64,000 nt of DNA from Claveliimonas bilis (GTDB lineage Bacteria > Bacillota > Clostridia > Lachnospirales > Lachnospiraceae): NCBI RefSeq assembly GCF_030296775.1, contig NZ_AP027742.1, forward strand, positions 2,914,001-2,978,000, read 5' to 3'. This document shows, in pieces, positions 25,529 to 39,136 of the stretch. Under the pieces are notes generated by a model. It was not told where the DNA came from and made no database searches. It was given only the letters and a program-made list of their open reading frames with translations. Each line of letters starts with the position of its first letter. Position 1 is the first letter of the stretch. A program made the translations under genes and the position numbers.

Positions 25529-26575
25529 CTATTTCCCTAACTTTTTCGCTAACTCTGCCAGTTCAGGTTCAATAAATTTGCCATCTTCCAGAATCTTCTT
25601 GTCATCCAGATAAATTGTACAGTTCAGACAGATTCCGTCGATATGGCTCTTTGCTTCACGGGGAGCTCCTCCGGAATAGCAGGATCCCTGATGTCCGAAT
25701 CCCCATTCTGTACTGCCCCATACACGTTCGTCCTCTGTCGTGCATCCTTCCAGTTTTGCATTTGGATTTACTCCGTAACATACATGTGCAGCTATGTACA
25801 TATTCGGATCGTCCAGTTTCTTATAATAAGCGCGGAGAATATCTGCCTGCTCACCGCCTTTGATTTCCTGGATCCTTCCCTCTTTTACGATATAGGATAC
25901 CGGCTCTGTAAGGTGGCCAAGCTCTGCATCGCCTCCTCCGGAAATTGTTCCGTCAAATGCGATCACTCCTTCGATCGTCTCTTCCTTCGGAGCCCATCCG
26001 ATCTGTCCGATGAGGAAATGTCCTCCTGCAAAACTGTAATCGCATTCATTTCCGATCGGGCGGTTCGGATCATTTTCAAACGTTACATCCGTGCCTGCCG
26101 CATTGGTAATCCTCATACGTTTTGTCGCTCTTGTCATTTCAGTTAATCTGTTCTGGAATGCCTGCTGTGCCTCAAGATCCACTTCTCCGATACAACGTAC
26201 AATTCTCTCAATGCTAAGTCCGCCAAGCATAACCTGTCTTGTTCTTCCATTATTTACTGCCTTATCCCATATTGGAGAATACAGAAGCCACTGATCATTC
26301 ATTTCTACCCAGACATCTGTCTTATCCACACAGGCAATCAAAGGATCCGGAAGATAAGGCATTGTCAATGCGCCATATCCCTTCGGGGTGGAATGCCAGG
26401 CAACCATTGTTTTTGCTCCCAGCACTTCAGCAGCCTTTGCCATTTCTTCTACTACCCGGAAATCCGGTTTGGAATCTGCTGTAATCAGTACGCTTTCCCC
26501 TTTCTTTACCTGAATCAGATCATGCATCAATTTGTAACATGCATTTGCCAGTTCCAGTTCCATATAACTTGCCAT
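25529..26575 (-). CDS. M29-like leucyl aminopeptidase family protein
   Basis: A 348-residue member of the M29/aminopeptidase T superfamily, paralogous in design to the gene at 8174-9118. The N-terminal domain has SVLITADSKPDFRVVEEMA. Candidate metal-site loops in the C-terminal half are FDGTISGGGDAELGHLTEP, the conserved AAHVCYGVNPNAKLEG, EWGFGHQGSCYS and AKSHIDGICL. AAGGAGGACAATACT precedes the ATG. It sits 67 bases after the NCS1 permease gene. It probably hydrolyses the imported amide or peptide, though ring-cleaving relatives exist. Confidence 0.75.
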   Translation of the reverse strand: MASYMELELANACYKLMHDLIQVKKGESVLITADSKPDFRVVEEMAKAAEVLGAKTMVAWHSTPKGYGALTMPYLPDPLIACVDKTDVWVEMNDQWLLYSPIWDKAVNNGRTRQVMLGGLSIERIVRCIGEVDLEAQQAFQNRLTEMTRATKRMRITNAAGTDVTFENDPNRPIGNECDYSFAGGHFLIGQIGWAPKEETIEGVIAFDGTISGGGDAELGHLTEPVSYIVKEGRIQEIKGGEQADILRAYYKKLDDPNMYIAAHVCYGVNPNAKLEGCTTEDERVWGSTEWGFGHQGSCYSGGAPREAKSHIDGICLNCTIYLDDKKILEDGKFIEPELAELAKKLGK

Positions 26576-26641
26576 AGTATTGTCCTCCTTATATATAAAA
26601 TTTTATTTTTTACATTTTGCTTTTATTTTTAATTTCCAATA

Positions 26642-27967
26642 CTATTCTCTAATCTCTTCTTCTTCGATCTCTTCCCCTATGATTCCCTGTCCGCTCTTAC
26701 TGAATATTTTCATAAGGATCAGGTAAGCCACTACACTGACTACAAGAGAGTTGATAGAAGCAATTCCTGCATTTACGGTAAATCCGACTATCATACCTAT
26801 GATCATTCCTGCAAAAGCCCAAATATTTACTTTGCAGTACTTTGTTCCCGGCCCATACTCATAATGGCGATGCCGGATCAGATAGTAATCACATATGATA
26901 ACTCCGGCAACAGGCGGAAGCGCTACTCCCAGGACATTCAGCCATGTTGAAAAGTAATCTGCCAGCCCCAGGGTACCGGTAAGTGTTGCCAGAAGACCTG
27001 TCACAATAACAATCTTCTTCTTTGGGAATGGCAGACAGTTGGATAATCCAAGACTTGCTGTATAAAGGTTATTGTCATTTGTCGTCCACTGTGCCAGGAT
27101 CAGAATCAGAAGAGCTGCTACGCCAAGTCCCATTGCCAGGAACGCAACCGGGAGATCACTTTCTCCTGTTGTCGCTGTAATCAGATATCCTGACATAATA
27201 ATAAATGTATTGGCAATCAGATATCCGAAAATAGTACCGCCCCAGGAGGCTTTCCAGTCTTTGGCATAACGGGTAATATCCGACTGTGCCGCTGCTCCTC
27301 CTGCAAAGGATCCTACAATAGTAACAATTGCCGTTCCTATCGTCATTGGTTCTGTAGGAACCACATTCTGTACAGCTGCCCAGCCGCCTGCTCCTTTGAT
27401 CGCCAATCCGACACCGACTACAGAAAGAATGAAAATCAATGGAACAGCTATATAACTTAAAATATTTAATCCTTTATATCCGAAATAAGCGGTCAGCATC
27501 ATCAAAATACCGCCCCAGGCTGCTGCTACATATTGAGATGTAATGAATCCTCCTTCCGGGAAAAGAGCTGACATTGTAGATCCAAAGAACCCTACCTGCA
27601 CAGCATACCATCCTGCCATAACAACTGCTAATAAGATACCGATCACTTTGGATCCTTCTCTTCCGAAACTGTGGCGGGCCAGAATAGAAGATGACACTCC
27701 TTCTCTTGCACCTGCTGCCCCGATCAATCCTCCATAAACACTCAAAATAATATTTCCTACTAAAGTCGCAATGATCGCATCCCGGAAATTCATCCCAAAT
27801 GCAATGGCTGAACCGGTATATAATCCGGACATACAGATACAAAATCCGGCACAGACAAACGCCACACTCCAAAAGCCTTTCTGTTCGGCTTCCGGCACTC
27901 GCTGCGTCGCATTATCATTTGACGAATGTACTGTTTTCTTTTCTGATACGTTGTTCACACTACCCAT
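26642..27967 (-). CDS. Cytosine/purine permease family (NCS1) transporter
   Basis: A 441-residue protein with about 12 membrane segments of the NCS1 family (CodB type): SVAFVCAGFCICMSGLYTGS, GAAGAREGVSSSILARHSFG, the Trp-rich QVGFFGSTMSAL and NNLYTASLGLSN. NCS1 carriers import cytosine, purines, allantoin, hydantoins or thiamine with sodium or protons. The ATG at 27967 has AAGGAGG seven bases upstream; the ATG two codons earlier is too close to it. A PucR regulator lies upstream and M29 and M19 hydrolases downstream, so a ureide, hydantoin or cyclic dipeptide-like substrate is likely, by inference. Confidence 0.85.
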   Translation of the reverse strand: MGSVNNVSEKKTVHSSNDNATQRVPEAEQKGFWSVAFVCAGFCICMSGLYTGSAIAFGMNFRDAIIATLVGNIILSVYGGLIGAAGAREGVSSSILARHSFGREGSKVIGILLAVVMAGWYAVQVGFFGSTMSALFPEGGFITSQYVAAAWGGILMMLTAYFGYKGLNILSYIAVPLIFILSVVGVGLAIKGAGGWAAVQNVVPTEPMTIGTAIVTIVGSFAGGAAAQSDITRYAKDWKASWGGTIFGYLIANTFIIMSGYLITATTGESDLPVAFLAMGLGVAALLILILAQWTTNDNNLYTASLGLSNCLPFPKKKIVIVTGLLATLTGTLGLADYFSTWLNVLGVALPPVAGVIICDYYLIRHRHYEYGPGTKYCKVNIWAFAGMIIGMIVGFTVNAGIASINSLVVSVVAYLILMKIFSKSGQGIIGEEIEEEEIRE

Positions 27968-28085
27968 CTTCATTCCTCCTTACGTTGACTTTCCTTGTTA
28001 GTATACGCTGATGCCAGCACCGGTACTCTCTTTTGTTTATATCTTAACAAAACCGTCCGCCCTTTGTCTCCGTGTAGCCATACAC

Positions 28086-28124
28086 AAAAAAAGGGCTGCT
28101 GTGTGCAGTCGCACACAACAACCC
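28086..28124 (-). terminator. Rho-independent terminator of the second pucR gene
   Basis: GGGCTGCTGTGTGC (28093-28106) pairs with GCACACAACAACCC (28111-28124), with G-U pairs. On the minus strand a run of seven T follows (28092-28086). The permease gene starts over 100 bases later. Confidence 0.8.
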
Positions 28125-28135
28125 AATATCCATTT

Positions 28136-29770
28136 CTATTTTCCCTTCAAAATATCAAAAACGATCAGGAAATTTAAAAGGTGAGGCATCTCAAAAGGTG
28201 AGTAGCCCAATAATTCTATAATTTTATTCCTTCGCTGCAGAACTGTATTTTTGTGGACATACATCTGCGAAGCAGCTGTGTGAGTATTTCCATTATTTTC
28301 CAAAAGAATACGCAGTGTGTCAACCAGCTCCGTCCCATGTTCCTCATCATAGGACGCCACCGGGCCGATAAAACGCTGACATACCTCGTATGTCTCATCC
28401 TGAGCGCCCATTTTTCGCAGCTTCTGAAAGAAATAGACGGCATCATAAAAAATGACCTTATTCTCACCGTAATGCTCTCTTCCGATGACAGCAGCTTCAA
28501 AAGCCTGAAAATAAGCATCCGGCATTTTCGTCACCTCTGTGAATGAATTGCTGACACCAACGGAAACCGACAGATTTGGCTTCCCCTGGAAAAGCCCCAG
28601 GAGCCTTCCGCAGAATTTTTTCATATCAATCTTGCTGTCCCGGTTATCCATAAACAGAATAATTGTATCGCTCCGAAGGGCGAGCCAGTTATCTGTATTA
28701 TAAGATTTCATGAACTCTTCAATTTTGCCCAGCAGAACCCGTTTCACATAGTCCTGTATTTCCTGCTGTACTTTAGGGCTTGTCATCTGTTGGATAGAAT
28801 TAATATTGATCAAAACAATACAATTCTTGTCCAGAATGGTAAGCCCCAACTCATATCCCCGTTCCACCGCTCTTTCATTGGAAGGGAAATTCCATACAAG
28901 AAGGTCCGCCGCATATTCCTGCACTGCCTTTTCTCTTAAATCTGCCATCCTGTTCTTTCGTCTGAGAATAAGAGAGCCCGATACCACCAAAGGATGGATC
29001 AGCTTTTCCTCCATTTCTTCAGAAAAGGTTTCATCATAATCTGTAATAAAAAGCCCGAACAAATTTTTCTGGGAACGGATCAGAACGATCAGACATTCCT
29101 TTCCTTCTATAGACTGCACTGTATAGCCTTTTTTACTGCATGCATAAAGAACATGATTGAAGTTGTATTTCAGGTACTCTTCTTCTTTTTGGATATCAGC
29201 ATCATCCCTGTCGGAAAAAATAATTTTCCCATAGGTATCATAATAGGAAATGCGTTTTTCCAGGCGTTGATTCATCTGCTGGAAGACCACATTCATATTC
29301 TCCTCGTTAATGATCAGGTTAAGAAAATCATTTCTGATTCCCGTCTCATTGTTTGGCTCAAGTGCAGGTGCATTCTCCTTATAGAGAAGATTCTGGATCG
29401 GGTTCATGATCTCAATATAGGACACATCCTGGCGAGCCTGAATGAGAGGGAACCCTGCCTCATTACACAGATCGATAATTTCCTGATCTATCTGCTGGAC
29501 CCATGTCCCCACATAACAGAGCACCAGTCCACAGCCCCCGTAATCGATCAAAGTCTGAATTACAACTTTCTGCTGTTCTACGTTGTCACAAATGGCATAA
29601 AATGCGGTAATGTAAAGCTGCTTTTTCAAAACCCAGTGTGAAATATTCCTGTCTGCTATTTCCAGAACACTTACACTCTCAATGGGAATATCCAATCCCT
29701 CTTCTCCCGCAACGACAGTTGCCCCGAATAAGCCGCCGAATTTCAGGGCTTCTCTGATCGTCAGAGACAT
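28136..29770 (-). CDS. PucR family transcriptional regulator
   Basis: A 544-residue PucR-type regulator. The N-terminal PucR domain starts LTIREALKFGGLFGATVVAG (1-125). A long middle section contains a GGDEF-like part (about 300-430; LSVSVGVSNSFTEVTKMPDAYFQ in two blocks). The HTH_30 domain at the C terminus has NGNTHTAASQMYVHKNTVLQRRNKIIELLG in two blocks. It follows a good promoter (29826-29854) and ends in its own terminator, so it is monocistronic. It probably activates the NCS1 permease/M29/SBP/M19 genes that follow. The ligand is unknown. Confidence 0.87.
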   Translation of the reverse strand: MSLTIREALKFGGLFGATVVAGEEGLDIPIESVSVLEIADRNISHWVLKKQLYITAFYAICDNVEQQKVVIQTLIDYGGCGLVLCYVGTWVQQIDQEIIDLCNEAGFPLIQARQDVSYIEIMNPIQNLLYKENAPALEPNNETGIRNDFLNLIINEENMNVVFQQMNQRLEKRISYYDTYGKIIFSDRDDADIQKEEEYLKYNFNHVLYACSKKGYTVQSIEGKECLIVLIRSQKNLFGLFITDYDETFSEEMEEKLIHPLVVSGSLILRRKNRMADLREKAVQEYAADLLVWNFPSNERAVERGYELGLTILDKNCIVLININSIQQMTSPKVQQEIQDYVKRVLLGKIEEFMKSYNTDNWLALRSDTIILFMDNRDSKIDMKKFCGRLLGLFQGKPNLSVSVGVSNSFTEVTKMPDAYFQAFEAAVIGREHYGENKVIFYDAVYFFQKLRKMGAQDETYEVCQRFIGPVASYDEEHGTELVDTLRILLENNGNTHTAASQMYVHKNTVLQRRNKIIELLGYSPFEMPHLLNFLIVFDILKGK

Positions 29771-29854: not shown

Positions 29855-29878
29855 GTTAAGAAATCACCCATTTTTTTC

Positions 29879-30244
29879 CTATCTTTCTTGTCTGGTCAAT
29901 AACAGATACTTTCGCAGTTTTTCCAACACAGTTTTAATATCGCCCTGATATTCAATGACACTTACACCATGAACTTCTATGACTCTTTGAAATTTGGTCC
30001 CTATCTTTGTGCACACGATATAATCACAGTCTTTTATTTTCTGTACTTTTTCATCTTCTACAAAGTCATGTCTCCCTTGCCTGATACCATTGGAAGATAA
30101 GATTCTTTTTTCTAGCAAATCTGTCTCTTTTCTTCTCTCTACTTTATAGATAAGTCCAACATCTGTTTTCCCAAAAGGAAGATTCACATTTTTCATATCA
30201 CTTGTACATATACAAACCTTCCAAATATCCTTTTTCCTATCCAT
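29879..30244 (-). CDS. NifX / NifB C-terminal domain (dinitrogenase iron-molybdenum cofactor) protein
   Basis: A 121-residue protein of the Nitro_FeMo-Co family, the fold found in NifX, NafY and the C-terminal part of fused NifB. It binds and shuttles iron-sulfur cofactor precursors. Visible parts are WKVCICTSDMKNVNLPFGKT at the start, GRHDFVEDE, DCDYIVCTKIGTKFQRVIEV and VIEYQGDIKTVLEKL. ATG 30244 overlaps the NifB stop by 8 bases (ATGGATAG), pointing to translational coupling; an ATG at 30262 is an alternative. It is the last gene of the nitrogenase-like operon and probably supplies in trans the domain missing from the neighbouring NifB. Confidence 0.8.
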   Translation of the reverse strand: MDRKKDIWKVCICTSDMKNVNLPFGKTDVGLIYKVERRKETDLLEKRILSSNGIRQGRHDFVEDEKVQKIKDCDYIVCTKIGTKFQRVIEVHGVSVIEYQGDIKTVLEKLRKYLLLTRQER

Positions 30245-31121
30245 GTGAAAAATTGCTGTCATCACCTTCCAACAACTCATAAAGTTCTTGTCTATACTCA
30301 CTGATCCCAGGTATACCAACTGCATCAGCCCGACAATGCTGACAGTGACGGAAAACTTTGATATGCTTTTCCGCCTCTTTTCTCGCATCAGCCAATTGCT
30401 CACACCCGGGTGCATCATAATCTTTCAGCTGATACTGTGGAATCAGAGGAATGATATTAATCATATGAGCTCCCCAGCTTTTCACAGCTTCAGCCACTTC
30501 TGCAATGTGTTTATCATTAATTCCGGGAATCAATACAATATTTACTTTTATAATCAATCCCAGCAAAGCCGCCTTTTGTATGCCCTCTTTTTGTTTGTTA
30601 ATTAATATCTGCGCTGCTTCTTCTTCCAAATAACGTCTTCCTTGGTAACGAATCCCTCCACATATTTGTCTTACTATTTCAGGATAAATGCCATTGACTG
30701 TAACTGTTAATGTATTAAGTCCAATCTGCGCCAATTCTTCTGCCCGCTCTTCCAATAGTAGTCCATTAGTACTTAAACATAATAATAAATTCGGAAAATC
30801 CTTTTTCACCAGTCGGAACGTTTCAATCGCATGATCGGTAGCCAACGTATCACCAGGTCCGGCAATTCCCACCACCCGAAGATTGTCACAAATTTTTACA
30901 GCTTTATGTACAATATCCAGCGCCTGTTTCGGAGATAAAATGCGCTTGGCAACGCCTGGTCTTTCGTCATTATCATTAATTGATCTGATACAATATTTAC
31001 ATATTATATTACAGCTTGGACAGACAGGCAGATGTATTCTTGCCAAATTAGGACGCTTATAAAGTGCAAAGCATGGATGATTTTGAGACAAATATTCCAG
31101 CTGTCTTTCTCTCTCCTTCAT
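30237..31121 (-). CDS. NifB-type radical SAM cofactor maturase
   Basis: A 294-residue radical SAM enzyme of the NifB family. The SAM-cluster motif CNIICKYC (CX3CX2C) sits about residues 37-44, after CPS, another Cys typical of NifB. Further NifB features are GIAGPGDTLA, LCLSTNGLLLEE, and the C-terminal HCQHCRADAVG that ligates an accessory cluster. NifB builds the carbide-centred 8Fe core (NifB-co) of nitrogenase cofactors. The C-terminal NifX-like domain is absent and encoded by the next gene. Start 31121 was preferred because AAGGAG lies nine bases upstream; ATG 31130 abuts the ribosome site. No NifEN scaffold is present, as in the methylthio-alkane reductase system. Confidence 0.9.
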   Translation of the reverse strand: MKERERQLEYLSQNHPCFALYKRPNLARIHLPVCPSCNIICKYCIRSINDNDERPGVAKRILSPKQALDIVHKAVKICDNLRVVGIAGPGDTLATDHAIETFRLVKKDFPNLLLCLSTNGLLLEERAEELAQIGLNTLTVTVNGIYPEIVRQICGGIRYQGRRYLEEEAAQILINKQKEGIQKAALLGLIIKVNIVLIPGINDKHIAEVAEAVKSWGAHMINIIPLIPQYQLKDYDAPGCEQLADARKEAEKHIKVFRHCQHCRADAVGIPGISEYRQELYELLEGDDSNFSHG

Positions 31122-31134
31122 GTCTGTCATCTCC

Positions 31135-31980
31135 TTATTCCTGCCGATCTATCAATATTTTTCCCCAGTGTTCCGACCACTCCCTCAGTTCTGCCTGTTC
31201 AAGTGCCTGCGGTACCTTTGACTCCGTATGTGCCTCTATCCTTTTTGCTAATTCCATATAAATACCTGCTTGTTTCGACTCTGGCAGGGCTTCAATAGTT
31301 GTCTTCCCCTGCAGCTCGCTTTTAGTAACCTCAACAGAACGCGGAATATACTGAAGAATTTTGGTATCTGTCCTTTTTGCAAAATCATCCACAATTTCTT
31401 TCTGGTATTCCTCATTAATAGAATTTGCAATAATTCCTCCCAGAAGAGCTCCTCCTGTGTTGGCATACTTTTCGATTCCTTTAAACAGATTATTTGCCGC
31501 ATATACAGACATAAAATCCGCCGATGACACCGTGAAAACATGATCTGCTATGCCTGCACGAATAGGCATAGCAAAGCCGCCGCATACTACATCTCCCAAG
31601 ACATCATATATTACATAATCAATCTCTAATTCTTCAAAAGTTCTCTGCTGCTTAAATAAATCGACTGCGCTGATAATTCCTCTTCCGGCGCATCCTACTC
31701 CTGGCTGCGGTCCTCCAGACTCTACACAATAAATTCCGTTAAACCCTTTATAGACAACATCCATCGCCTTCACCTTGGGCTTTTCCCTCATCATATCCAG
31801 AACGGTAGGAATATATTTTCCTCCACGCAATGTATTGGTAGAATCACTTTTCGGATCACAACCAAATTGCATGACTTTATATCCCATCTTTGACAAAGCA
31901 GCGCTTAGATTTGATGTCGTTGTAGATTTTCCAATTCCGCCTTTTCCATAAATTGCAATTTGTTTTATCTTATGACTCAT
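31135..31980 (-). CDS. NifH-like reductase iron protein of a nitrogenase-like system
   Basis: A 281-residue P-loop ATPase and iron-sulfur reductase of the NifH/BchL family. Walker A is GKGGIGKS (12-19), switch I is in [10 protein letters not shown], and the two cysteines that hold the shared [4Fe-4S] cluster in the dimer are C97 (GVGCAGRG) and C133 (VVCGGFAMP). R100, the ADP-ribosylation Arg of NifH, is kept. It passes electrons, with ATP hydrolysis, to the catalytic component encoded just upstream. It lies between the D-like and NifB genes in one transcription unit. Its grouping outside true NifH needs a tree; context decides the call. Confidence 0.9.
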
Positions 31981-31999
31981 CTTTCTGTATTCCTTCCCA

Positions 32000-33472
32000 C
32001 TAAATAGTTTCTCCTGATTTTATATAAGAAAACGGCTCTTTCTCATACCAACTTTCCTGATACGGCAACCGAAGATTCTCCCTCAGATTTTTATAGAACT
32101 GGATATTTCTTGTCATTCTTGCCAGACCTCTGGCTATTTCAAATACTCCCGTAAATCCAAAATAGTTATTGGGTTTGTAAAACAACGGATATACCGGTAT
32201 TCCCTGTTTTGCCGGCTGTACACATTGTCCGTTATGCCCTACATAGATATCTGGCTTCATCCGTTCCAGAAGATTTGCTTTTTCGAAAGGCTGTCCTATA
32301 GCTACGCTGTAAGTCATTTTTTCGTTGTTTTTTCTTTTTTCCAGCAATTCATTAGAAAATCTGTCGTGATGTCTTGTCTCAATTCCTAAAACTTCTACTC
32401 CCAGCCTCTCTAATGTATCTGCTGTCGCTAAAGATCGTGGTTCTCCCCCATGAATAAAAGCTGTTTTTCCTGAAAGTATCTTTCGATACGGTGCAAGGGC
32501 TCTTTCCAATTTTCCTACTTCCTGTTCAATGACTTTCTCTGCTTCTTTTTCTTTCCCAAAAAATTTTGCAACCTCTCGCAGCCATAAGCTGGTATTCCCA
32601 ATACCTACTGGAATATTTTTCATTACATATGGTATTCCATAAACTTCTTCCATATATTGAAATAAATATTCATCATGAGTTGTACAGATACTTACATTTA
32701 AAGATGCATCTACCATTTCTGTTAAATACTTTGTAGGTGAATCATATGGAAGTATCCTCACTTCTAATCCCAATAGCTCTAATAGCCTTTTTAACTCATC
32801 CTGATCGGCATGACTGGTTGATGATGTATTAAAAAGGTTGACTTTTTTCCCGTTATTTTTTCTTAAATTAGCTTCTACTTCCTCTTCCTTTTCCCGTAAA
32901 TAAGTTTTTATAATTCCATGATAAAGTGCATCATATGCTGACGCTGGTATCTTGGACTTAAATCCAGCACAGTATACTGGCATAATATTGGCTTTCACTT
33001 CACTTTTTACGGAGTCTATTACTGCATCAGCATCATCTCCTGTCAAAGTAGGGACACATGTCATCATTACAAAAATATTTTCTGGATGAAATTTCTCTTC
33101 CGCATACAAAATTGCTTCTCTTAATTTATCTTCTCCACCGCTGATAACATCTGTTTCACTTAAATTTGTATTAATTGTTCGTACATATCTCAATTTATCC
33201 GGTTCATCAAAAAACAATTCTCTCATGAACATATTCATTCCACCACAGCCCACCGGGGAATGCATAATGACAACCGGATCCGAAACAGTATCTACCCACG
33301 ACAAACTCAGACTTGACTGACACAACTGAGTCTGATGAAATCTGCGGCAGGCCAAATTCATACATCCTCCCTGTGCACATTCCAATAAATCTTTTACATT
33401 TCCCCCATAACTATTACAGGATCCCAGACGATTTTCTCTGACAGCAGGTTCCTTAGAATCATAGTATTCCAT
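32000..33472 (-). CDS. Nitrogenase-like component 1, D-like (cofactor-bearing) subunit
   Basis: A 490-residue nitrogenase component 1 family protein. P-cluster-type ligands are C51 (LCQSS), C76 (SPVGCGG) and C139 ([12 protein letters not shown]), spaced as in NifD C62, C88 and C154. C263 in [13 protein letters not shown] aligns with NifD C275, which ties the cofactor. The position of NifD H442 (GIPFREMHSW) reads [10 protein letters not shown] here, a Phe at 431, so the Mo-side histidine is missing. An N-terminal Cys set (C19, C32, C37, C42) is extra. The subunit thus looks able to hold a NifB-co-like cluster but not FeMo-co. It is probably the substrate-reducing subunit with the K-like partner. 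Confidence 0.85.
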
Positions 33473-33484
33473 AATTTTCCTCCT

Positions 33485-34831
33485 TTATCTGCAGGCAACT
33501 AATTGAGTAAATAAATCTTCCAGCATATTCAGGCCACCTTCCCAGCCTGCATAGCCTTTGTTGATAATCACACGATTTGCAATCGGATAAGATACACTTA
33601 AATGTAATGCGCCTATTCTTTCAGCGAACTCTCTGTCCATGGAACTTCCAATCACGAAAGCCGGATCAAAACTGTCATGATACTCGCCATCTTCCTCTTC
33701 CACAGGCCATATCTCTCTCAAATGACCCTCCACGTTTCCAGTATCCGTATCAAAAAAAACATGAGGTGCTATTCCGGACTTGTAATTTTCAAACCTTTTT
33801 CTTACCTTCTCTTTTTCTCCTTCATCCAACTGGTCTGTTATCACAATCACATCTGGTATCCATCCTATATCGTCTGACAGATATCTGCTGACAGCCGGTG
33901 CATAGTTTGCATCGCTTATTACTGCAGCATACCTCTGAAAATCACAGTCTGTATACAGATCAACCACTTTCTCTACATAGCGATAGTACTCTTTGCGATG
34001 CTTTTCTATTACTCGGTTAATCGTTTTTTCTGAAATTCCGGCAGCAGTCCCGACTTCATAGAGGAAATCTGCTGTTGCTCCGTCACCTATCGGAAAAGCT
34101 GTGGTAATATAGGGAACACGGTGGATATCCTCATAACATTTCGCTGTTTGAATCCCATATGTATCTGATACAACAATATTCAATGCTGCCTTGGAAGAAT
34201 ATTTCAGGTTTTCCAGAGTTTCAAATTCTCCGAAAAATGTGTTAACCTCAAGCCCTATCTCTTGAAGAAGTTCCTTTAAAATTGACAGATCTCTTTTCCA
34301 GAAAATATCCATAATAGGAACGACTCCCAATAAGTTGACCATCTTTTTATTCTTTTCCTGTGACGGTTCCACATAATCCTTCACCAACGTTTCCATAAGC
34401 AGATCATACCCATCATAGGAATCCCCTCTGAATCCTCCCGTTTCAAGAGCGAATACCGGTTTATCATTTGTAGAGAATCTGGAAACAACACTTTTTACAT
34501 CATCACCTACGATTTCCACCATACAGGCAGTCATTACAACAAACAAATCCCCATCCATAATCTCCAGCGTACTTTCAATTTGTTCTTCAAGTCTGTCTTC
34601 TCCACCGAAAATCAAATCTTTTTCTGTTACACAGGTACTGGACACAGCTTGATTTGAAGCATACCCGCTTCCTGCATAGGCAGCAGATAAAGAAATTGTA
34701 TATCCCAGATTTCCTCCGCATCCTGGTGCTGCATGAATAATAGGTACTACTTTTCCAGGCAATGCTTTCAATGTTCCAAGCGCCCCACCCAAAGTACATG
34801 TAAATCTGGGACGATCAATAATATTACTCAT
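33485..34831 (-). CDS. Nitrogenase-like component 1, K-like subunit
   Basis: A 448-residue nitrogenase component 1 family protein that pairs with the D-like subunit to form the reductase core. P-cluster-type cysteines are C12 (FTCTLGG), C38 (PGCGGNLG, 26 residues later, as in NifK C70/C95) and C103 (TACMVEIVGDD, the NifK TTC.AEVIGDD motif). C67 lies in SSTCVTEKDLIFGGEDRL. No Cys occurs where a D-type subunit binds the cofactor (VVSDTYGIQT), supporting the K-like role. The N terminus is short compared with NifK. The gene follows the permease gene by 24 bases, tying the enzyme and importer into one operon. Confidence 0.85.
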   Translation of the reverse strand: MSNIIDRPRFTCTLGGALGTLKALPGKVVPIIHAAPGCGGNLGYTISLSAAYAGSGYASNQAVSSTCVTEKDLIFGGEDRLEEQIESTLEIMDGDLFVVMTACMVEIVGDDVKSVVSRFSTNDKPVFALETGGFRGDSYDGYDLLMETLVKDYVEPSQEKNKKMVNLLGVVPIMDIFWKRDLSILKELLQEIGLEVNTFFGEFETLENLKYSSKAALNIVVSDTYGIQTAKCYEDIHRVPYITTAFPIGDGATADFLYEVGTAAGISEKTINRVIEKHRKEYYRYVEKVVDLYTDCDFQRYAAVISDANYAPAVSRYLSDDIGWIPDVIVITDQLDEGEKEKVRKRFENYKSGIAPHVFFDTDTGNVEGHLREIWPVEEEDGEYHDSFDPAFVIGSSMDREFAERIGALHLSVSYPIANRVIINKGYAGWEGGLNMLEDLFTQLVACR

Positions 34832-34855
34832 TTTTTTCTCCTTTTCTTGTATTCA

Positions 34856-35521
34856 TTAATGTTTTTTCATCCAGTGATAAATCCGCACACCGCTAACCTG
34901 TAAAATTTCCACCAATATGACTAAAATAATGACTGTACCGTACATAATCACTCTGTTAAATCCCTGATAACCGTATGTAATGGCAATAGCACCCAAGCCA
35001 CCGCCTCCAATCGTTCCGGCCATAGCCGTCATTCCCAAAATATTGATAATTAAAATCGTACTTCCATAAATCATAATAGGCATAGAATCCTTTAATACGA
35101 TTTTATATATAATCTGCCAATTGGAAGCCCCAAAGGACTGTGCCGCTCTTATCAGACTTTTATCTACCTCATTCAAATTCCCTTCTATCAGTCTTGTGGC
35201 GGATGCGGCTCCCGCTATACTAAGAGGAAAAATCGCAGCTACATTTCCTATTGGAGTTCCAACTACCGCTCTCGTCACTGGAATCAATGCAACCACTAAA
35301 ATGATGAATGGGAAGGAACAAATAACATTAATAATTGTATTGATGACTCCATAAATAATTCTATTCTCCTTCAAGCCATCTTTATTGGTAACAAACAAAA
35401 TAATAGCGAGAATAAATCCAACTATAATAGAAATAATTGTCGCCCAAAACAGCATGAATGCAGTCTCCGCAACTGCTGATGGAACAATCTGTTTAAATAA
35501 TTCCCATTGTCTTAAATCCAT
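34856..35521 (-). CDS. metI: MetI-type ABC transporter permease
   Basis: A 221-residue permease with five membrane segments of the methionine-type (MetI) importer family. The EAA loop that contacts the ATPase appears in RLIEGNLNEVDKSLIRAAQSFGAS in two blocks, and the C-terminal segment is GGGGLGAIAITYGYQGFN. It starts two bases before the end of metN, showing close coupling. Known members import D- and L-methionine and some methionine analogues. Here it lies between its ATPase gene and the nitrogenase-like genes, so the natural substrate may be the compound reduced by that enzyme. Confidence 0.87.
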   Translation of the reverse strand: MDLRQWELFKQIVPSAVAETAFMLFWATIISIIVGFILAIILFVTNKDGLKENRIIYGVINTIINVICSFPFIILVVALIPVTRAVVGTPIGNVAAIFPLSIAGAASATRLIEGNLNEVDKSLIRAAQSFGASNWQIIYKIVLKDSMPIMIYGSTILIINILGMTAMAGTIGGGGLGAIAITYGYQGFNRVIMYGTVIILVILVEILQVSGVRIYHWMKKH

Positions 35522-35522
35522 C

Positions 35523-36488
35523 CTATACCACCTCCGCCTTGATCGATTTCATATGCAAATATTCGATAACCTTATCTACGTCTTCCACATCTACATTAAT
35601 ATAAACAGACCCCATCAGCTTGTCCCTGTATCTGTCCATAGAACCGTATACCAGAGTATAATTGATACCAAGATCTCTGCTCAGCTGTGAGAAAATCTTC
35701 TCCGGATGAGAATCCTTTGTATATACAATCCGAATATTTTTTCCTTCAGTCGGCAAAATTTTTGTCTCATCTTCTCCTGTAAATGCGGCAAACACCTGGG
35801 GAGAATGAAGTAAAATGTCCTCTACTGTCCCTTCCACAGCGACCTTTCCTTCATCCAGTACAGCCACTCTGTTACAAATTTGCTTTACAACTGACATCTC
35901 ATGAGTGACCACTACAATCGTCACTCCCAATGTTTCATTCACTTTTCTTAACAGAGCCAAAATATCCTTCGTGATTTTAGGATCAAGAGCGGAAGTTGCC
36001 TCATCGCACAATAAAATTTTAGAATCCAACGCCAGTGCTCTTGCAATAGCTACGCGCTGCTTCTGACCGCCACTGAGATTTTTTGCCTTCTCTTTTATTT
36101 TTTCTTCCAACCCAACCAGTCTTACCAGCTCTTTTACCTTTTTATCAATTTCACTCTTCTTATATTTCCAACACTCTAACGGAATTGCTATGTTTTTATA
36201 AACTGTTTCTCTGTCTATGATGGCAAACTGCTGAAAAATCATTCCTATGTTTCGTCTAAACTCTCGTATTTCAAAATTTTTTTTAAGGTCTTTCACCTCT
36301 ATTCCATCAACTTTCAAACTTCCACTTTCATATTTCTGCAGTCCGTTAATGCAGCCTAATAATGTCGACTTTCCAGCTCCGCTTTGTCCTATGATTCCGT
36401 ATATATCGCCATCATAAATATTTAAATTAATTCCATTTAGTACTTCCAACTCTCCATAGGACAACTGTAAATCTGATATTTCAATCAT
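35523..36488 (-). CDS. metN: MetN-type ABC transporter ATP-binding protein with NIL domain
   Basis: A 321-residue ATPase. The nucleotide-binding domain (1-235) has Walker A GQSGAGKST, signature LSGGQKQRVAIARAL, Walker B ILLCDEATSALDP and the switch His in VVVTHEMSVV. The last 75 residues form the NIL (ferredoxin-like) domain (IRIVYTKDSHPEKIF, LVYGSMDRYRDKLMG), which in E. coli MetN binds methionine and stops transport when it is plentiful. The presence of NIL argues for a methionine-like or organosulfur ligand. It is preceded by GAGGTGTAAGGC and lies 88 bases after the binding-protein gene. Confidence 0.9.
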   Translation of the reverse strand: MIEISDLQLSYGELEVLNGINLNIYDGDIYGIIGQSGAGKSTLLGCINGLQKYESGSLKVDGIEVKDLKKNFEIREFRRNIGMIFQQFAIIDRETVYKNIAIPLECWKYKKSEIDKKVKELVRLVGLEEKIKEKAKNLSGGQKQRVAIARALALDSKILLCDEATSALDPKITKDILALLRKVNETLGVTIVVVTHEMSVVKQICNRVAVLDEGKVAVEGTVEDILLHSPQVFAAFTGEDETKILPTEGKNIRIVYTKDSHPEKIFSQLSRDLGINYTLVYGSMDRYRDKLMGSVYINVDVEDVDKVIEYLHMKSIKAEVV

Positions 36489-36575
36489 GCCTTACACCTC
36501 ACAATAGTTATAAAAATAGGTGCACAAGTCCGAAAACCTGAGCACCTGTTTCTCTAAGACAGTTTTGTTTTAATT

Positions 36576-37433
36576 CTAAAAAACGATGATAAAGCTTCCG
36601 TCATTTGCTTCTTCCAGATTTTTTCTTGCTGTTTCCGAAGTAAACGCCGTCATCAGGTCTTCTACCCATGGTTCATCTTCATTATCTCCATTAATTACCA
36701 CACCCTGTGCCAATGATGACAGTTCATCAGTATATTCTTCCGTATACAGCAATCCGCTCGTATCATAATCGCCTGCATACATAGTTGGATTATAAGCAAC
36801 TATCATATCTACATCATTTAACGTAGTTGGAACATTTGGTTCTTCTGCTTCTATAAATTCAATGTTCTTTGAATTATCTACAATATCTTCCGCAACATAA
36901 TAGTCCCCATACTGTGGTGATTCAGCTAACTTGATCAATCCCATATCTTCCAATAGTTTTAAAGAACGATCTTTATTGGAAGCATCACTACATATAGTCA
37001 CCTGCGCACCATCTGACAAATCATCAATGCTTTCGTATTTACTAGAATAGCAACAAAATGGTCCGAAAATAATTGGTCCCATAAATTTCAAATTATATCC
37101 TTGTTCGTCATTGAATGTCTGCATATATGCCTCATGCTCATTAAATGATGCATCAATCTCACCAGCATCTAATGCAGTATTTGGCTGAACCGGATCCTGG
37201 AACATTACAATTTCCATTTCATATCCTTCTTCTTCCAGGGCATCTCTAATCGCTTCTGTTACCTGTTCATTTGTTGCAGTTGTCCCGATTTTTAGGACAT
37301 CTTTTTCACTTCCTGTCTCTTCTTCTGATGCATCACTTTGAGTTTCCTCTGATTCATTTGTACTTCCGCAGCCTGCCATTAAGGAAACAGCCATAGCAGC
37401 GCATAAGAATGCACTTACAACTCTCTTCTTCAT
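36576..37433 (-). CDS. metQ: MetQ/NlpA-type substrate-binding lipoprotein
   Basis: A 285-residue lipoprotein. The signal peptide MKKRVVSAFLCAAMAVSLMA ends in lipobox LMAGC (Cys22), followed by an acidic linker. The mature domain (from about 47; DVLKIGTTATNEQVTEAI) is an NlpA/MetQ type II binding fold with ALDAGEIDASFNEHEAYMQ, the family motif that lines the pocket. It captures the ligand outside the cell for the MetNI transporter. As the first gene after an operator-like palindrome it leads the operon with the nitrogenase-like genes. Classical MetQ proteins bind methionine; the true ligand is to be tested. Confidence 0.88.
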   Translation of the reverse strand: MKKRVVSAFLCAAMAVSLMAGCGSTNESEETQSDASEEETGSEKDVLKIGTTATNEQVTEAIRDALEEEGYEMEIVMFQDPVQPNTALDAGEIDASFNEHEAYMQTFNDEQGYNLKFMGPIIFGPFCCYSSKYESIDDLSDGAQVTICSDASNKDRSLKLLEDMGLIKLAESPQYGDYYVAEDIVDNSKNIEFIEAEEPNVPTTLNDVDMIVAYNPTMYAGDYDTSGLLYTEEYTDELSSLAQGVVINGDNEDEPWVEDLMTAFTSETARKNLEEANDGSFIIVF

Positions 37434-37457
37434 TTTTTCCTCCTGTCATCACTATTT

Positions 37458-37489
37458 TAGTTATTATAGTATATTTACTATAGTAACTA
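37458..37489 (-). promoter_or_regulatory. Operator-like palindrome and promoter region of the metQNI-nitrogenase-like operon
   Basis: TAGTTATTATAGTA (37458-37471) and TACTATAGTAACTA (37476-37489) are 14-base arms with one mismatch and a 4-base centre, 25 bases before the metQ start codon. On the minus strand one arm holds TATAAT, a fair -10 box; no strong -35 box was seen. The XRE regulator encoded next to it is a candidate binder. The palindrome would cover RNA polymerase and so suggests repression. Confidence 0.55.
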
Positions 37490-37573
37490 TAAATAAAAAT
37501 TTTCTAAAAGTAAAATTGCTTTTATCTATAATTTCAATCAATATATCGTCTTTTTCTATATATCTAGACAACA

Positions 37574-37604
37574 AAAAAACTGCATACCTTATGGTATACA
37601 GTTT
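37574..37604 (-). terminator. Rho-independent terminator of the XRE gene
   Basis: AAACTGCATACC (37577-37588) and GGTATACAGTTT (37593-37604) pair with one mismatch around TTAT. A T-run follows on the minus strand. It separates the XRE gene from the operon that follows. Confidence 0.8.
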
Positions 37605-37610
37605 CGCTCC

Positions 37611-37946
37611 CTATCTTTTCTTTAGTTTCAGAGCCTGCTTAATCAGCTGCAGGATAATCACTTTATCCTCTTCTTCCTGATCACGCAATTGATTTAAAAT
37701 TTGAATCGTGACCGCATCAACCTTTTGTTCAGGAAGTGTCTCTTCAGCAAAAAATTCCGATAATCCCATTCCCAATGCGTCACAAATTTTTGATATAACC
37801 AGTATTGTGGGATTTTTTTCATTTCTTTCTATTTGTCCTAAATATGCTGTAGTAATTTCTGCTGCAAAAGCCAGCTGCTCCTGACTTAGATGATTCTTCT
37901 TCCTCAGTTTTCTGACTCGTTCACCTGTACTAAAGTTATTACTCAT
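37611..37946 (-). CDS. XRE family HTH regulator
   Basis: A 111-residue protein. Residues about 10-65 form a Cro/C1-type HTH: VRKLRKKNHLSQEQLAFAAE, then ITTAYLGQIERNEKNPTILV. The C-terminal tail (about 70-111) is acidic then basic, and probably a helix for dimerisation. AAGGAG precedes the ATG. It ends in its own terminator, and a palindromic candidate operator lies about 120 bases beyond. It is probably the local regulator of the metQNI-nitrogenase-like genes, perhaps responding to sulfur or methionine status; it might also have arrived with the nearby IS element. Confidence 0.82.
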   Translation of the reverse strand: MSNNFSTGERVRKLRKKNHLSQEQLAFAAEITTAYLGQIERNEKNPTILVISKICDALGMGLSEFFAEETLPEQKVDAVTIQILNQLRDQEEEDKVIILQLIKQALKLKKR

Positions 37947-38059
37947 AATACGCTCCTTTAGTTAATATTACATGAATAAGCCGTCTCACTCAACGTACTA
38001 TAATTATGCAAACAACATCAACTATAATTTCCATTTTCTGGCATATTTCGACAAACATA

Positions 38060-38860
38060 TTTAATCCCTCAGTCGCCCCCACCCGTAAAACGGGTGGCTC
38101 GGGACGCAGGCTCTAAGCCCGCCCTACTTGGCTGCGCCTCAAGGCGCTGGCTTTCTCTTTAAATGCTATGGGAAGTCTGCTGCGCATTCTTCCCACAGCT
38201 CCGTTCAAGCCACATTGCTATTGACTCGTCGCTGCCCCTAAAGGGGCGTTGATACTACTCAGCCCTGACCCTTAAAAGGGTCTTCATATTCTTTCACGCT
38301 GAGTTTGTCTTGCATCATATCTGCTTTTTCCTGATCTTGTATATACTTCTTTATGGTGGCTTCGTTTAATCCAACTGTGCTTACATAATATCCTTCTGAC
38401 CAGAAATGACGGTTCCCAAACTTGTACTTTAAATTTGCGTGCCTGTCAAACATCATCAGGGCACTTTTCCCTTTCAGGTATCCCATAAACGAAGATACGC
38501 TGATTTTCGGCGGTATGCTTACCAGCATATGCACATGATCCGGCATCAGATGTCCTTCCAATATCTCCACCCCTTTATAGCTGCATAACTGTTTTAATAT
38601 GTCTCGCAGGTCAGCTTTGTATTGATTATATACAATTTTTCTCCTATACTTAGGGGTGAAGATGATGTGATATTTACACATCCACTTCGTATGTGCGAGC
38701 GAATTCGTTTGCTTTGCCATAAAATCACCTTTCCTTTCTTTAATAGTGGCCTGAACAACCCTATTATAACGGAAAGGTGATTTTTTGTATAACAAACGTC
38801 GCGCACCCGCATAGCAGGTGGTTTCTATTTCGCACGTTTCCGTTTCTCTGTTGAGAAACT
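38060..38860 (-). mobile_element. IS200/IS605-family element, tnpA only
   Basis: A single Y1 transposase gene with no tnpB lies between two stem-loop ends. The left end has CACCCGT-AAA-ACGGGTG (38080-38096). The right end has CACCCGC-ATA-GCAGGTG (38804-38820, one mismatch). Such subterminal hairpins without inverted terminal repeats are typical. About 160 bases between the left end and the gene contain more small hairpins. The exact cleavage sites were not determined, so limits are approximate. It is inserted upstream of the XRE gene. Confidence 0.75.
38259..38720 (-). CDS. tnpA: IS200-type Y1 transposase TnpA
   Basis: A 153-residue HUH/Y1 transposase. The HUH pair is in MPDHVHMLVSIPP, and the catalytic Tyr is probably that of YIQDQ in the C-terminal helix. 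The opening IIFTPKYRRKIVY is typical. ATG 38720 follows AAAGGTGATTTT; the longer upstream frame is not supported. Length is normal, so the enzyme is probably intact and the element may move by single-strand peel-and-paste at stem-loop ends. Confidence 0.93.
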   Translation of the reverse strand: MAKQTNSLAHTKWMCKYHIIFTPKYRRKIVYNQYKADLRDILKQLCSYKGVEILEGHLMPDHVHMLVSIPPKISVSSFMGYLKGKSALMMFDRHANLKYKFGNRHFWSEGYYVSTVGLNEATIKKYIQDQEKADMMQDKLSVKEYEDPFKGQG

Positions 38861-39136
38861 CCAACATACTCAACAGGGTCTATCCGACCCGTAAAAAAAT
38901 ACTCTTTGAATCATAACACCATGACTCAAAGAGTATTTTCTCTTAATTTATGGAATTAAATTTTCACACTGTCTCCTTCCCACATTCCCTGCTCAGAGTG
39001 TCTGCAAAACTTCTTCGAAGCTCCTTTCTTTCAGAATAAGAAAATCTCTTCCCACTATCATAATTATAAATAGGATAAATATAAAAGCCTCTGAAAGCGA
39101 GTATTTAAACTCTATTTCCAGAGACTTTTATTAATA
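38721..39136. other. Non-coding stretch: IS right end plus two terminators
   Basis: The first 140 bases belong to the IS200-type right end. At 38896-38909 and 38926-38939 a perfect 14-base inverted repeat (AAAATACTCTTTGA and its complement) with T-runs on both sides looks like a terminator. At about 39084-39128 AAAAGCCTCTG pairs with CAGAGACTTTT just after the xylB stop and is the probable end of the pentitol operon. I see no gene in it. Confidence 0.6.

Follow-up and report, generated by a model that had tools for sequence, protein, structure and literature searches.

A nitrogenase-like operon with a MetQNI-type importer in Claveliimonas bilis, possibly a sulfur-scavenging system

The genome of Claveliimonas bilis, a member of the Lachnospiraceae, consists of one contig of 3.11 Mb (NZ_AP027742.1), of which a stretch of 64,000 nucleotides, positions 2,914,001 to 2,978,000, was analyzed; this whole stretch is called the window. 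Within it, genes for an ATP-binding cassette (ABC) importer of the methionine type and for a nitrogenase-like reductase lie on the minus strand as metQ-metN(NIL)-metI-K-D-H-nifB-nifX, from position 37433 down to 29879 (Table 1). All eight open reading frames (ORFs) are open, and the intergenic gaps are 87 bp between metQ and metN, 1 bp between metN and metI, 24 bp between metI and K, 12 bp between K and D, 19 bp between D and H, and 4 bp between H and B. The mechanically called nifX ORF (29879-30418) overlaps the B gene by 182 bp. As its PF02579 match begins only at residue 76, translation more probably begins from the ATG at 30244, in an overlap of a few bases with the stop of B; no clear ribosome-binding site was seen there. 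An earlier note, made from the letters of the window alone, had described this eight-gene, operon-like run with an importer linked to nitrogenase-like genes; ORFs, coordinates, gaps and gene families all agree with that description, and MetQNI is part of the operon.

Table 1. Features of the operon and of the island that carries it (window positions)
Feature	Position	Strand	Remarks
NifX/NifB-C-terminal-like cluster-binding protein	29879..30244	-	Nitro_FeMo-Co PF02579 38 bits; start inferred
NifB-like radical SAM protein lacking a NifX domain	30237..31130	-	297 aa; radical SAM 79 bits
H subunit, MarH-type Fe protein	31135..31980	-	281 aa; Fer4_NifH 335 bits
D subunit, nitrogenase-like reductase	32000..33472	-	490 aa; Oxidored_nitro 237 bits
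K subunit, nitrogenase-like reductase	33485..34831	-	448 aa; Oxidored_nitro PF00148 218 bits
metI-like permease	34856..35521	-	221 aa; BPD_transp_1 58 bits
metN-like ATPase with C-terminal NIL domain	35523..36488	-	321 aa; ABC_tran 127 bits, NIL 46 bits
metQ-like substrate-binding lipoprotein, altered methionine pocket	36576..37433	-	285 aa; NlpA lipoprotein PF03180 176 bits
Perfect palindrome TTACTATAGTAA upstream of metQ, possible operator	37475..37486		genome C1:2951475-2951486
Terminator-like hairpin after the XRE gene	37576..37605	-	the region has 7 sites of this kind, against 4.9 expected
XRE-type regulator on the island	37611..37946	-	111 aa; NCBIfam helix-turn-helix matches, all under cut-off
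IS200/IS605-family transposase on the island	38259..38873	-	NF033573 158 bits, cut-off 55; called ORF exceeds the domain
Island absent from G296 (second genome of the same species)	about 29865..39130		9.3 kb; genome comparison and low GC

By the sequences of D, K and H and by the fold of D, the reductase is nitrogenase-like and not a nitrogenase, and its nearest solved relative is methylthio-alkane reductase (MAR; MarBHDK, PDB 9FMG and 9D9U; PMC12552129). MAR chains were the best PDB matches of both D (198 bits, next non-MAR chain 116) and K (244 bits, next 96), while H is 71% identical to MarH over 273 aa and scored 452 bits against it, compared with 282 for the next protein, NifH. The model of D (predicted local distance difference test, pLDDT, 87.6) matched 9FMG with Z 39.6 and a root-mean-square deviation of 2.2 over 451 residues; the next entry reached Z 33.6. 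Scores against the curated families were below cut-off for D with NifD (146 of 654 bits) and K with NifK (75 of 427), as well as for K with BchB (105 of 490), D with CfbD (54 of 268), H with BchL (230 of 345) and H with CfbC (354 of 402), the comparison with dark-operative protochlorophyllide oxidoreductase, chlorophyllide reductase and CfbCD being one of hidden Markov model (HMM) scores.

The set of D, K, H and NifB without NifE, NifN or NifV, as the earlier note had it, was borne out. A search of the genome with its own D gave two hits at E 1e-3, D itself and K, and no genome protein reached the 463-bit cut-off for NifV, the best of three weaker matches scoring 143.5. Beyond the operon's H, the genome contains no second full-length NifH-family match. 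The B protein matches archaeal NifB at 286 bits and the NCBIfam nifB family at 270 bits, under its cut-off of 344. Of the NifB motifs, B carries HPC, CX3CX2C, AGPGD, TVTVN and CX2CRADA; ExRP was not found in it.

Trees of D, K and H, a check proposed along with the original description, placed D and K outside the MAR clade and H with MarH. Rows were thinned at more than 82% identity for D (139 to 96), 70% for K (126 to 63) and 85% for H (66 to 43). In the resulting 96-row tree, the window D lies inside a clade of 59 rows (58 others), separate from the 12-row MAR clade; the K tree agrees, with the window K outside the MAR group and inside the same clade, whose members are often linked to cysteine synthase genes. 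Forcing the window D together with 8 MAR-clade rows in a 46-row tree made the log-likelihood 157.8 worse (p-AU 6e-41), in an approximately unbiased (AU) test with groups defined once the tree was known and with 46 rows hand-chosen from the 96. H groups with MarH and the Fe proteins of similar operons, a group of 22 rows having a Shimodaira-Hasegawa-like approximate likelihood ratio (SH-aLRT) support of 99 and one of 21 rows a support of 95.

In MAR the Fe8S9C cluster is held by Cys270 and His429, and Arg428 together with His429 has been put forward as a possible hallmark (PMC12552129). Both cluster ligands are kept in the window D, as Cys263 and His413, and so is His375 of MAR. Arg428 is present in 11 of 11 MAR-clade members and falls in a gap in the window D and in all 58 of its clade members; since the Arg is shared by 11 of 16 other group IV rows, it does not single out MAR. 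At position 199 the window and all 58 clade members have Tyr, as against Phe in 11 of 11 MAR-clade and 15 of 16 further group IV rows. Trp195 is replaced by Pro in the window, the clade having Met in 39 of 58 and Trp in 8. At the positions of NifD Gln191 and His195 the window D has Pro and Tyr. Cys51, Cys76 and Cys139 of D stand at the P-cluster positions, where they match the MAR cysteines and do not vary within the aligned sets; Cys12, Cys38 and Cys103 of K align with MarK cysteines and are invariant among the five proteins aligned. Because these ligand residues are kept, a P-cluster and an Fe8S9C cluster would be the expected cofactors of DK. Identity with MAR, the first hypothesis, was dropped on the strength of the D and K trees and of the test of residues Arg428 and Phe199. 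The likeness to MAR claimed by the earlier note thus survives in that MAR is the nearest solved relative, but the enzyme is not MAR.

The importer has all the parts of its family, namely an NlpA fold and MetI- and MetN-type partners, the latter with a NIL domain, and chains of the MetQ family are the best structural matches of the MetQ model (Z up to 25.7). The matches of MetQ, MetN and MetI nevertheless all remain under the NCBIfam curated cut-offs for methionine. In the MetQ of PMC6739813 (NmMetQ), R156, N213 and N238 contact the amino-acid group of methionine and Y81, F98, H100 and Y103 surround the thioether. This seven-residue set is not fully kept in the window MetQ: alignments give Pro for Tyr81 and Asn for Phe98, so that two of the four thioether contacts are replaced, while His100, Tyr103 and Arg156 are retained and N213 probably corresponds to Asn190 (an alignment estimate). 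The N238 region reads AYNPTMYAG and its alignment is ambiguous, the residue being either altered or shifted; the model falls below pLDDT 50 exactly at residues 216-222, which bears on this question. In 29 same-family homologues, taken from the loci of the best matches among the 198 genomes that gave one, Tyr occupies position 81 in 25, Ser in 3, Val in 1 and Pro in none; position 98 is Phe in 21, Tyr in 7, His in 1 and Asn in none, and Arg156 is present in 25. Of the three contacts to the amino-acid group, Arg156 and an Asn are kept, so that the ligand may be amino-acid-like, sharing this group with methionine and differing in its side chain. The designation as a methionine-type importer consequently fits the family and the fold, but as a statement about the ligand it is weakened by the two replaced contacts and by the scores below cut-off. 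When MetQ was searched against the genome, a single match passed 1e-20; the ten other hits had E values of 1e-9 or worse and covered at most the first 115 residues, leaving no second full-length MetQ in the genome.

Relatives were sought in a genome collection of 84,980 species (by its own description), which gave 116, of which 80 were kept. The closest among those kept, from Paenibacillus, is 48% identical in D. Others come from Moorella, Sporobacter, Faecalicatena, many Treponema, and Synergistaceae and Planctomycetaceae assemblies, many of which are presumably from termite guts. A CysK-like gene lies at most eight genes from D in 75 of 99 loci, these being the loci, out of 100 scanned, with D at least 33.2% identical; one such CysK was tested and scored 446 bits against TIGR01139 (cut-off 351). 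For nine of the 99 loci (L042 and L047-L054), six of which have CysK, the best D belongs to a neighbouring clade, which leaves CysK at 69 of 90 loci in the window's clade. Within the thinned clade (n=58), CysK is found at most six genes away in 38 members and no CysK within six genes in 20; a cysteine synthase gene is therefore not required for clade membership. Importers near the same 58 members are Ssu-type in 28, metQ/metI in 6 and of an amino-acid type in 1, with none seen in 23. Many of the contigs are short, so that absent neighbours are undercounted, and the importer labels come from local BLAST matches with identities as low as about 22%. Eleven loci gave a metQ or metI hit, and 7 of them have all three genes (L037, L041, L115, L116, L139, L144, L152); at L093 metQ stands alone and on the opposite strand, and at L141 metN and metI lie at a contig end, both loci being among the 6 of 58. 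Importer changes on the D tree number 6, a count made without a shuffled control and not used as evidence. From the proximity of CysK and the diversity of importers among the relatives, we conclude that the enzyme class is tied to sulfur assimilation, with importers that change.

Parts of this association have been described before. The co-location of such proteins with cysteine synthase, O-acetylhomoserine (OAH) sulfhydrylase and ABC transporters was noted in 2012 by Dos Santos (PMC3464626), a cysteine synthase has been reported in the group IV operon of a spirochete (PMC13067680), and a 2023 preprint describes MarHDK homologues, termed group IV-A, with methionine transporters and methyltransferases (PMC10418091). 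The name group IV-A (Nfa) is taken from PMC10418091 and PMC9147875, and our trees were built without a named NfaD. Searches of a library of open-licence papers gave no functional study of the cysteine-synthase-linked clade. The clade has thus been seen before, and the copy in the window is a divergent version of it with an altered importer.

Several other arrangements were encountered among the relatives. At L037, L113, L115, L116, L135, L139, L144 and L152 a recurrent cluster combines metN-metI-metQ (in most of them), cysK and D and K with MtaA-like methyltransferases, a corrinoid protein and a RACo-type activase, families having been searched for L037 only. A glutamine-synthetase-like ligase is encoded between cysK and a methyltransferase at L037, and the other loci have a gene comparable to it in length (436-458 aa) near that place. 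The MetQ proteins linked to methyltransferases have Asp or Asn at position 81 and His at 98, a pocket altered in a different way from that of the window, while the methionine signature is retained in the MetQ proteins of L041 and L093. Identity of the window operon with these MetQNI-methyltransferase clusters was considered and dropped, since forcing its D together with four of theirs, a group defined once the tree was known, gave a p-AU of 2.7e-4, and since the MetQ pockets differ. Two sets of D (or D and K), one from the MAR clade or its neighbours and one from the window's clade, occur close together at L073, L083, L091, L099, L103, L104, L108, L121, L124, L125, L131, L145 and L147, which suggests two-step C-S chemistry, for example from thioether to thiol to sulfide. 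In a genome of the window's family (G278), protein L039 5902 is 58% identical to R. rubrum MarD and lies near a window-clade D; it is a probable true MAR in this family. Long proteins at L158 (738 aa) and L159 (757 aa), which have H as their best local match and adjoin a K-like gene, also match D and are NifH-D fusions, a type mentioned in PMC3464626. The Ssu-type binding protein beside the reductase at L036 (4591-5688) also matches SaoX, at 99 bits with a cut-off of 300.

Elsewhere in the host genome, a cysK gene (C1:1169443) adjoins a TIGR01326 OAH sulfhydrylase gene, and a second TIGR01326 gene is present. No NIR_SIR (sulfite reductase) match was found in this genome; the same family was found in 11 of 14 control genomes. 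Cleavage of a C-S bond to sulfide or thiol is favoured because these products would be usable by the host at once, while sulfite would be usable by no known route. The operon may accordingly be pictured as follows. MetQ would bind an organosulfur compound other than plain methionine, perhaps an amino-acid-like one, and MetNI would import it. NifB and NifX would supply the [Fe8S9C] cluster of DK, to which H would deliver electrons with ATP hydrolysis by way of the P-cluster. DK would then reductively cleave a C-S bond and free sulfide or a small thiol, and CysK and the MetY-type OAH sulfhydrylase, encoded elsewhere, could incorporate it into cysteine, homocysteine or methionine. That the operon is such a sulfur-scavenging system, in which an Fe8S9C enzyme cleaves an imported organosulfur compound that is not plain methionine, is a reading in which we place about even confidence; in it we infer the cluster identity, the reaction, the substrate and the release of sulfide or thiol. 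The earlier note had left the choice between an organosulfur and another small substrate, and of these an organosulfur compound is the best reading. A more specific proposal, which we think somewhat unlikely, makes this member of the cysteine-synthase-linked clade the third type of nitrogenase-like enzyme to cleave C-S bonds: its MetQ would have been re-tooled for an S-substituted amino acid, and an anaerobe free of sulfite reductase would use the Fe8S9C cluster to convert such an organosulfur amino acid, taken from the environment, into sulfide or a thiol.

A number of observations weigh against sulfur scavenging. The operon itself contains no cysK, metY or other sulfur enzyme, and its sulfur role would be extrapolated from relatives whose D is no more than 48% identical. 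The CysK link is not confined to the window's clade, and the window D sits on a long branch (0.94 to 1.6), so that another activity is possible. H passes the curated nifH cut-off (TIGR01287, 405 bits against 394). Finally, a MetQ with His100, Tyr103, Arg156 and Asn190 could still bind methionine.

In an alternative use of the importer, MetQNI takes up methionine itself, as a precursor of S-adenosylmethionine (SAM) for NifB, as a sulfur source, or as the substrate of DK. The family assignment by HMM and fold, the NIL domain, the methionine signature in the reductase-linked MetQ of L041 and L093, and the absence of another full-length MetQ match in the genome are all in keeping with it. We regard it as unlikely, given that Pro81 and Asn98 are found in none of the 29 homologues, that the N238 region is ambiguous or altered, that all three importer scores are below the methionine cut-offs and that no riboswitch was found upstream. 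It is quite unlikely that the substrate is not organosulfur at all (an organic selenium or arsenic compound, for example, or another small molecule), in which case the sulfur context of the relatives would not apply. The conserved cluster ligands, the clade shared with CysK-linked proteins and the methionine bound by the MetQ proteins of PMC6739813 speak for sulfur, against which stand the long branch of D, an operon without a sulfur gene, and the resemblance of the L036 Ssu-type binding protein to SaoX, below cut-off. A true methylthio-alkane reductase, or an enzyme acting on the same small methyl thioethers with methanethiol passing into methionine synthesis, would agree with the MarH-type H and the PDB matches of D and K, with the two OAH sulfhydrylases, with the kept His375, and with the Trp195 found in 8 of 58 clade members. 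Even so, it is decidedly unlikely: the forced grouping of D with MAR was rejected, Arg428 is found in 0 of 58 clade members, positions 199 and 195 are Tyr and Pro, and the volatile substrates of MAR would hardly need an importer of the amino-acid type.

A sulfonate reductase releasing sulfite, like isethionate reductase (Isr), is very unlikely; MetQNI is not known as a type of sulfonate importer, and the genome shows no sulfite reductase match. The trees that place D were built without IsrD. Isr too has a dedicated ABC importer, and Ssu-type importers stand near 28 of 58 clade members, yet IsrD has one P-cluster Cys and IsrB is closest to BciD (PMC11423573), compared with three such Cys in the window D and a NifB-like B. 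That the operon encodes a minimal group IV nitrogenase fixing N2, as reported for Endomicrobium (PMC9147875), is extremely improbable, in spite of the nifH score of H and of a 2026 report of N2-reducing systems built from L-cluster-bound assembly platforms (PMC13245594): NifEN is lacking, no NifV passes the cut-off, the Gln191 and His195 positions hold Pro and Tyr, and MAR, with the same cluster type, is described as being without N2 reduction (PMC12552129).

Compared with known systems, the operon shares with MAR a set of D, K, H and a NifB-like protein that lacks NifEN, the equivalents of the P-cluster cysteines, Cys270 and His429, and the best PDB match by sequence and D fold. It differs from MAR in the clade of D and K, the missing Arg428, Tyr for Phe199, Pro for Trp195, a linked importer, and relatives tied to cysteine synthase. 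With the cysteine-synthase-linked group IV proteins it has in common the clade of D and K, the His429 ligand, Tyr199 and the lack of Arg428, but it is at most 48% identical to them, has no cysK in the operon and a long branch, and has its own MetQNI outside their methyltransferase-MetQNI subclade. IsrBHDK with SsuCAB is likewise a nitrogenase-like reductase with a radical SAM protein and a dedicated ABC importer (PMC11423573); measured against that published description, the window has three P-cluster Cys in D, a NifB-type radical SAM protein and a MetQ-type importer. All three parts of MetNIQ (PMC6739813, PMC12357092), the NIL domain and the MetQ fold are present, whereas Tyr81 is Pro, Phe98 is Asn and the Asn238 region is altered or shifted. 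The earlier statement that no such pairing of a nitrogenase-like system and a dedicated importer had been characterised was too wide, as Isr with SsuCAB is a characterised nitrogenase-like enzyme whose own importer feeds sulfur assimilation (PMC11423573), and both the co-location with ABC transporters and cysteine synthase (PMC3464626) and the link to methionine transporters (PMC10418091) had already been noted.

The operon belongs to a feature larger than the one first described, an insertion that is missing in G296. The flanks match in that genome at 91% and 97% identity, about 70 other bases taking the place of the island, and neither D nor, at E 1e-20, MetQ finds a match there. GC content is 0.36-0.41 over the operon and 0.36-0.43 within the island, as opposed to 0.43-0.46 in the flanks. 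Because it is missing in G296 and deviates in base composition, the operon is accessory and was probably acquired. None of 20 pattern-matched viral-contig stretches encoded a relative that would indicate a viral carrier, in a search with a single-protein query that detects close relatives only. The terminator-like hairpin separates the XRE gene from metQ, which therefore probably has its own promoter, and the palindrome TTACTATAGTAA, of which the genome contains no other exact copy, taken with this hairpin suggests that the operon may be under a controlled promoter of its own. A screen against Rfam families, with E values up to 1, gave no riboswitch upstream of metQ; the sole Rfam matches were to a plastid family at 38.9 kb, with E values of 0.04 and 0.79, below the gathering score. 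The flank adjoining the island, which is common to the island-free strain, encodes at 25529-29770 a PucR-type regulator and a cytosine/purine-type permease, together with an ORF that we take, from its sequence, to be an M29-like peptidase.

To our knowledge, few group IV functions have been established: Cfb in F430 synthesis, MAR, Isr and one reported nitrogen fixer. A broad group IV clade is found in several bacterial phyla and often beside cysteine synthase. An importer encoded in the same operon provides a handle, since the ligand of its binding protein can be found without guessing the chemistry of the enzyme. If confirmed, the proposed role would extend the uses of nitrogenase-type clusters in sulfur nutrition. 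The family of the host is common in animal guts, so that the compound could matter for the formation of sulfide and thiols there.

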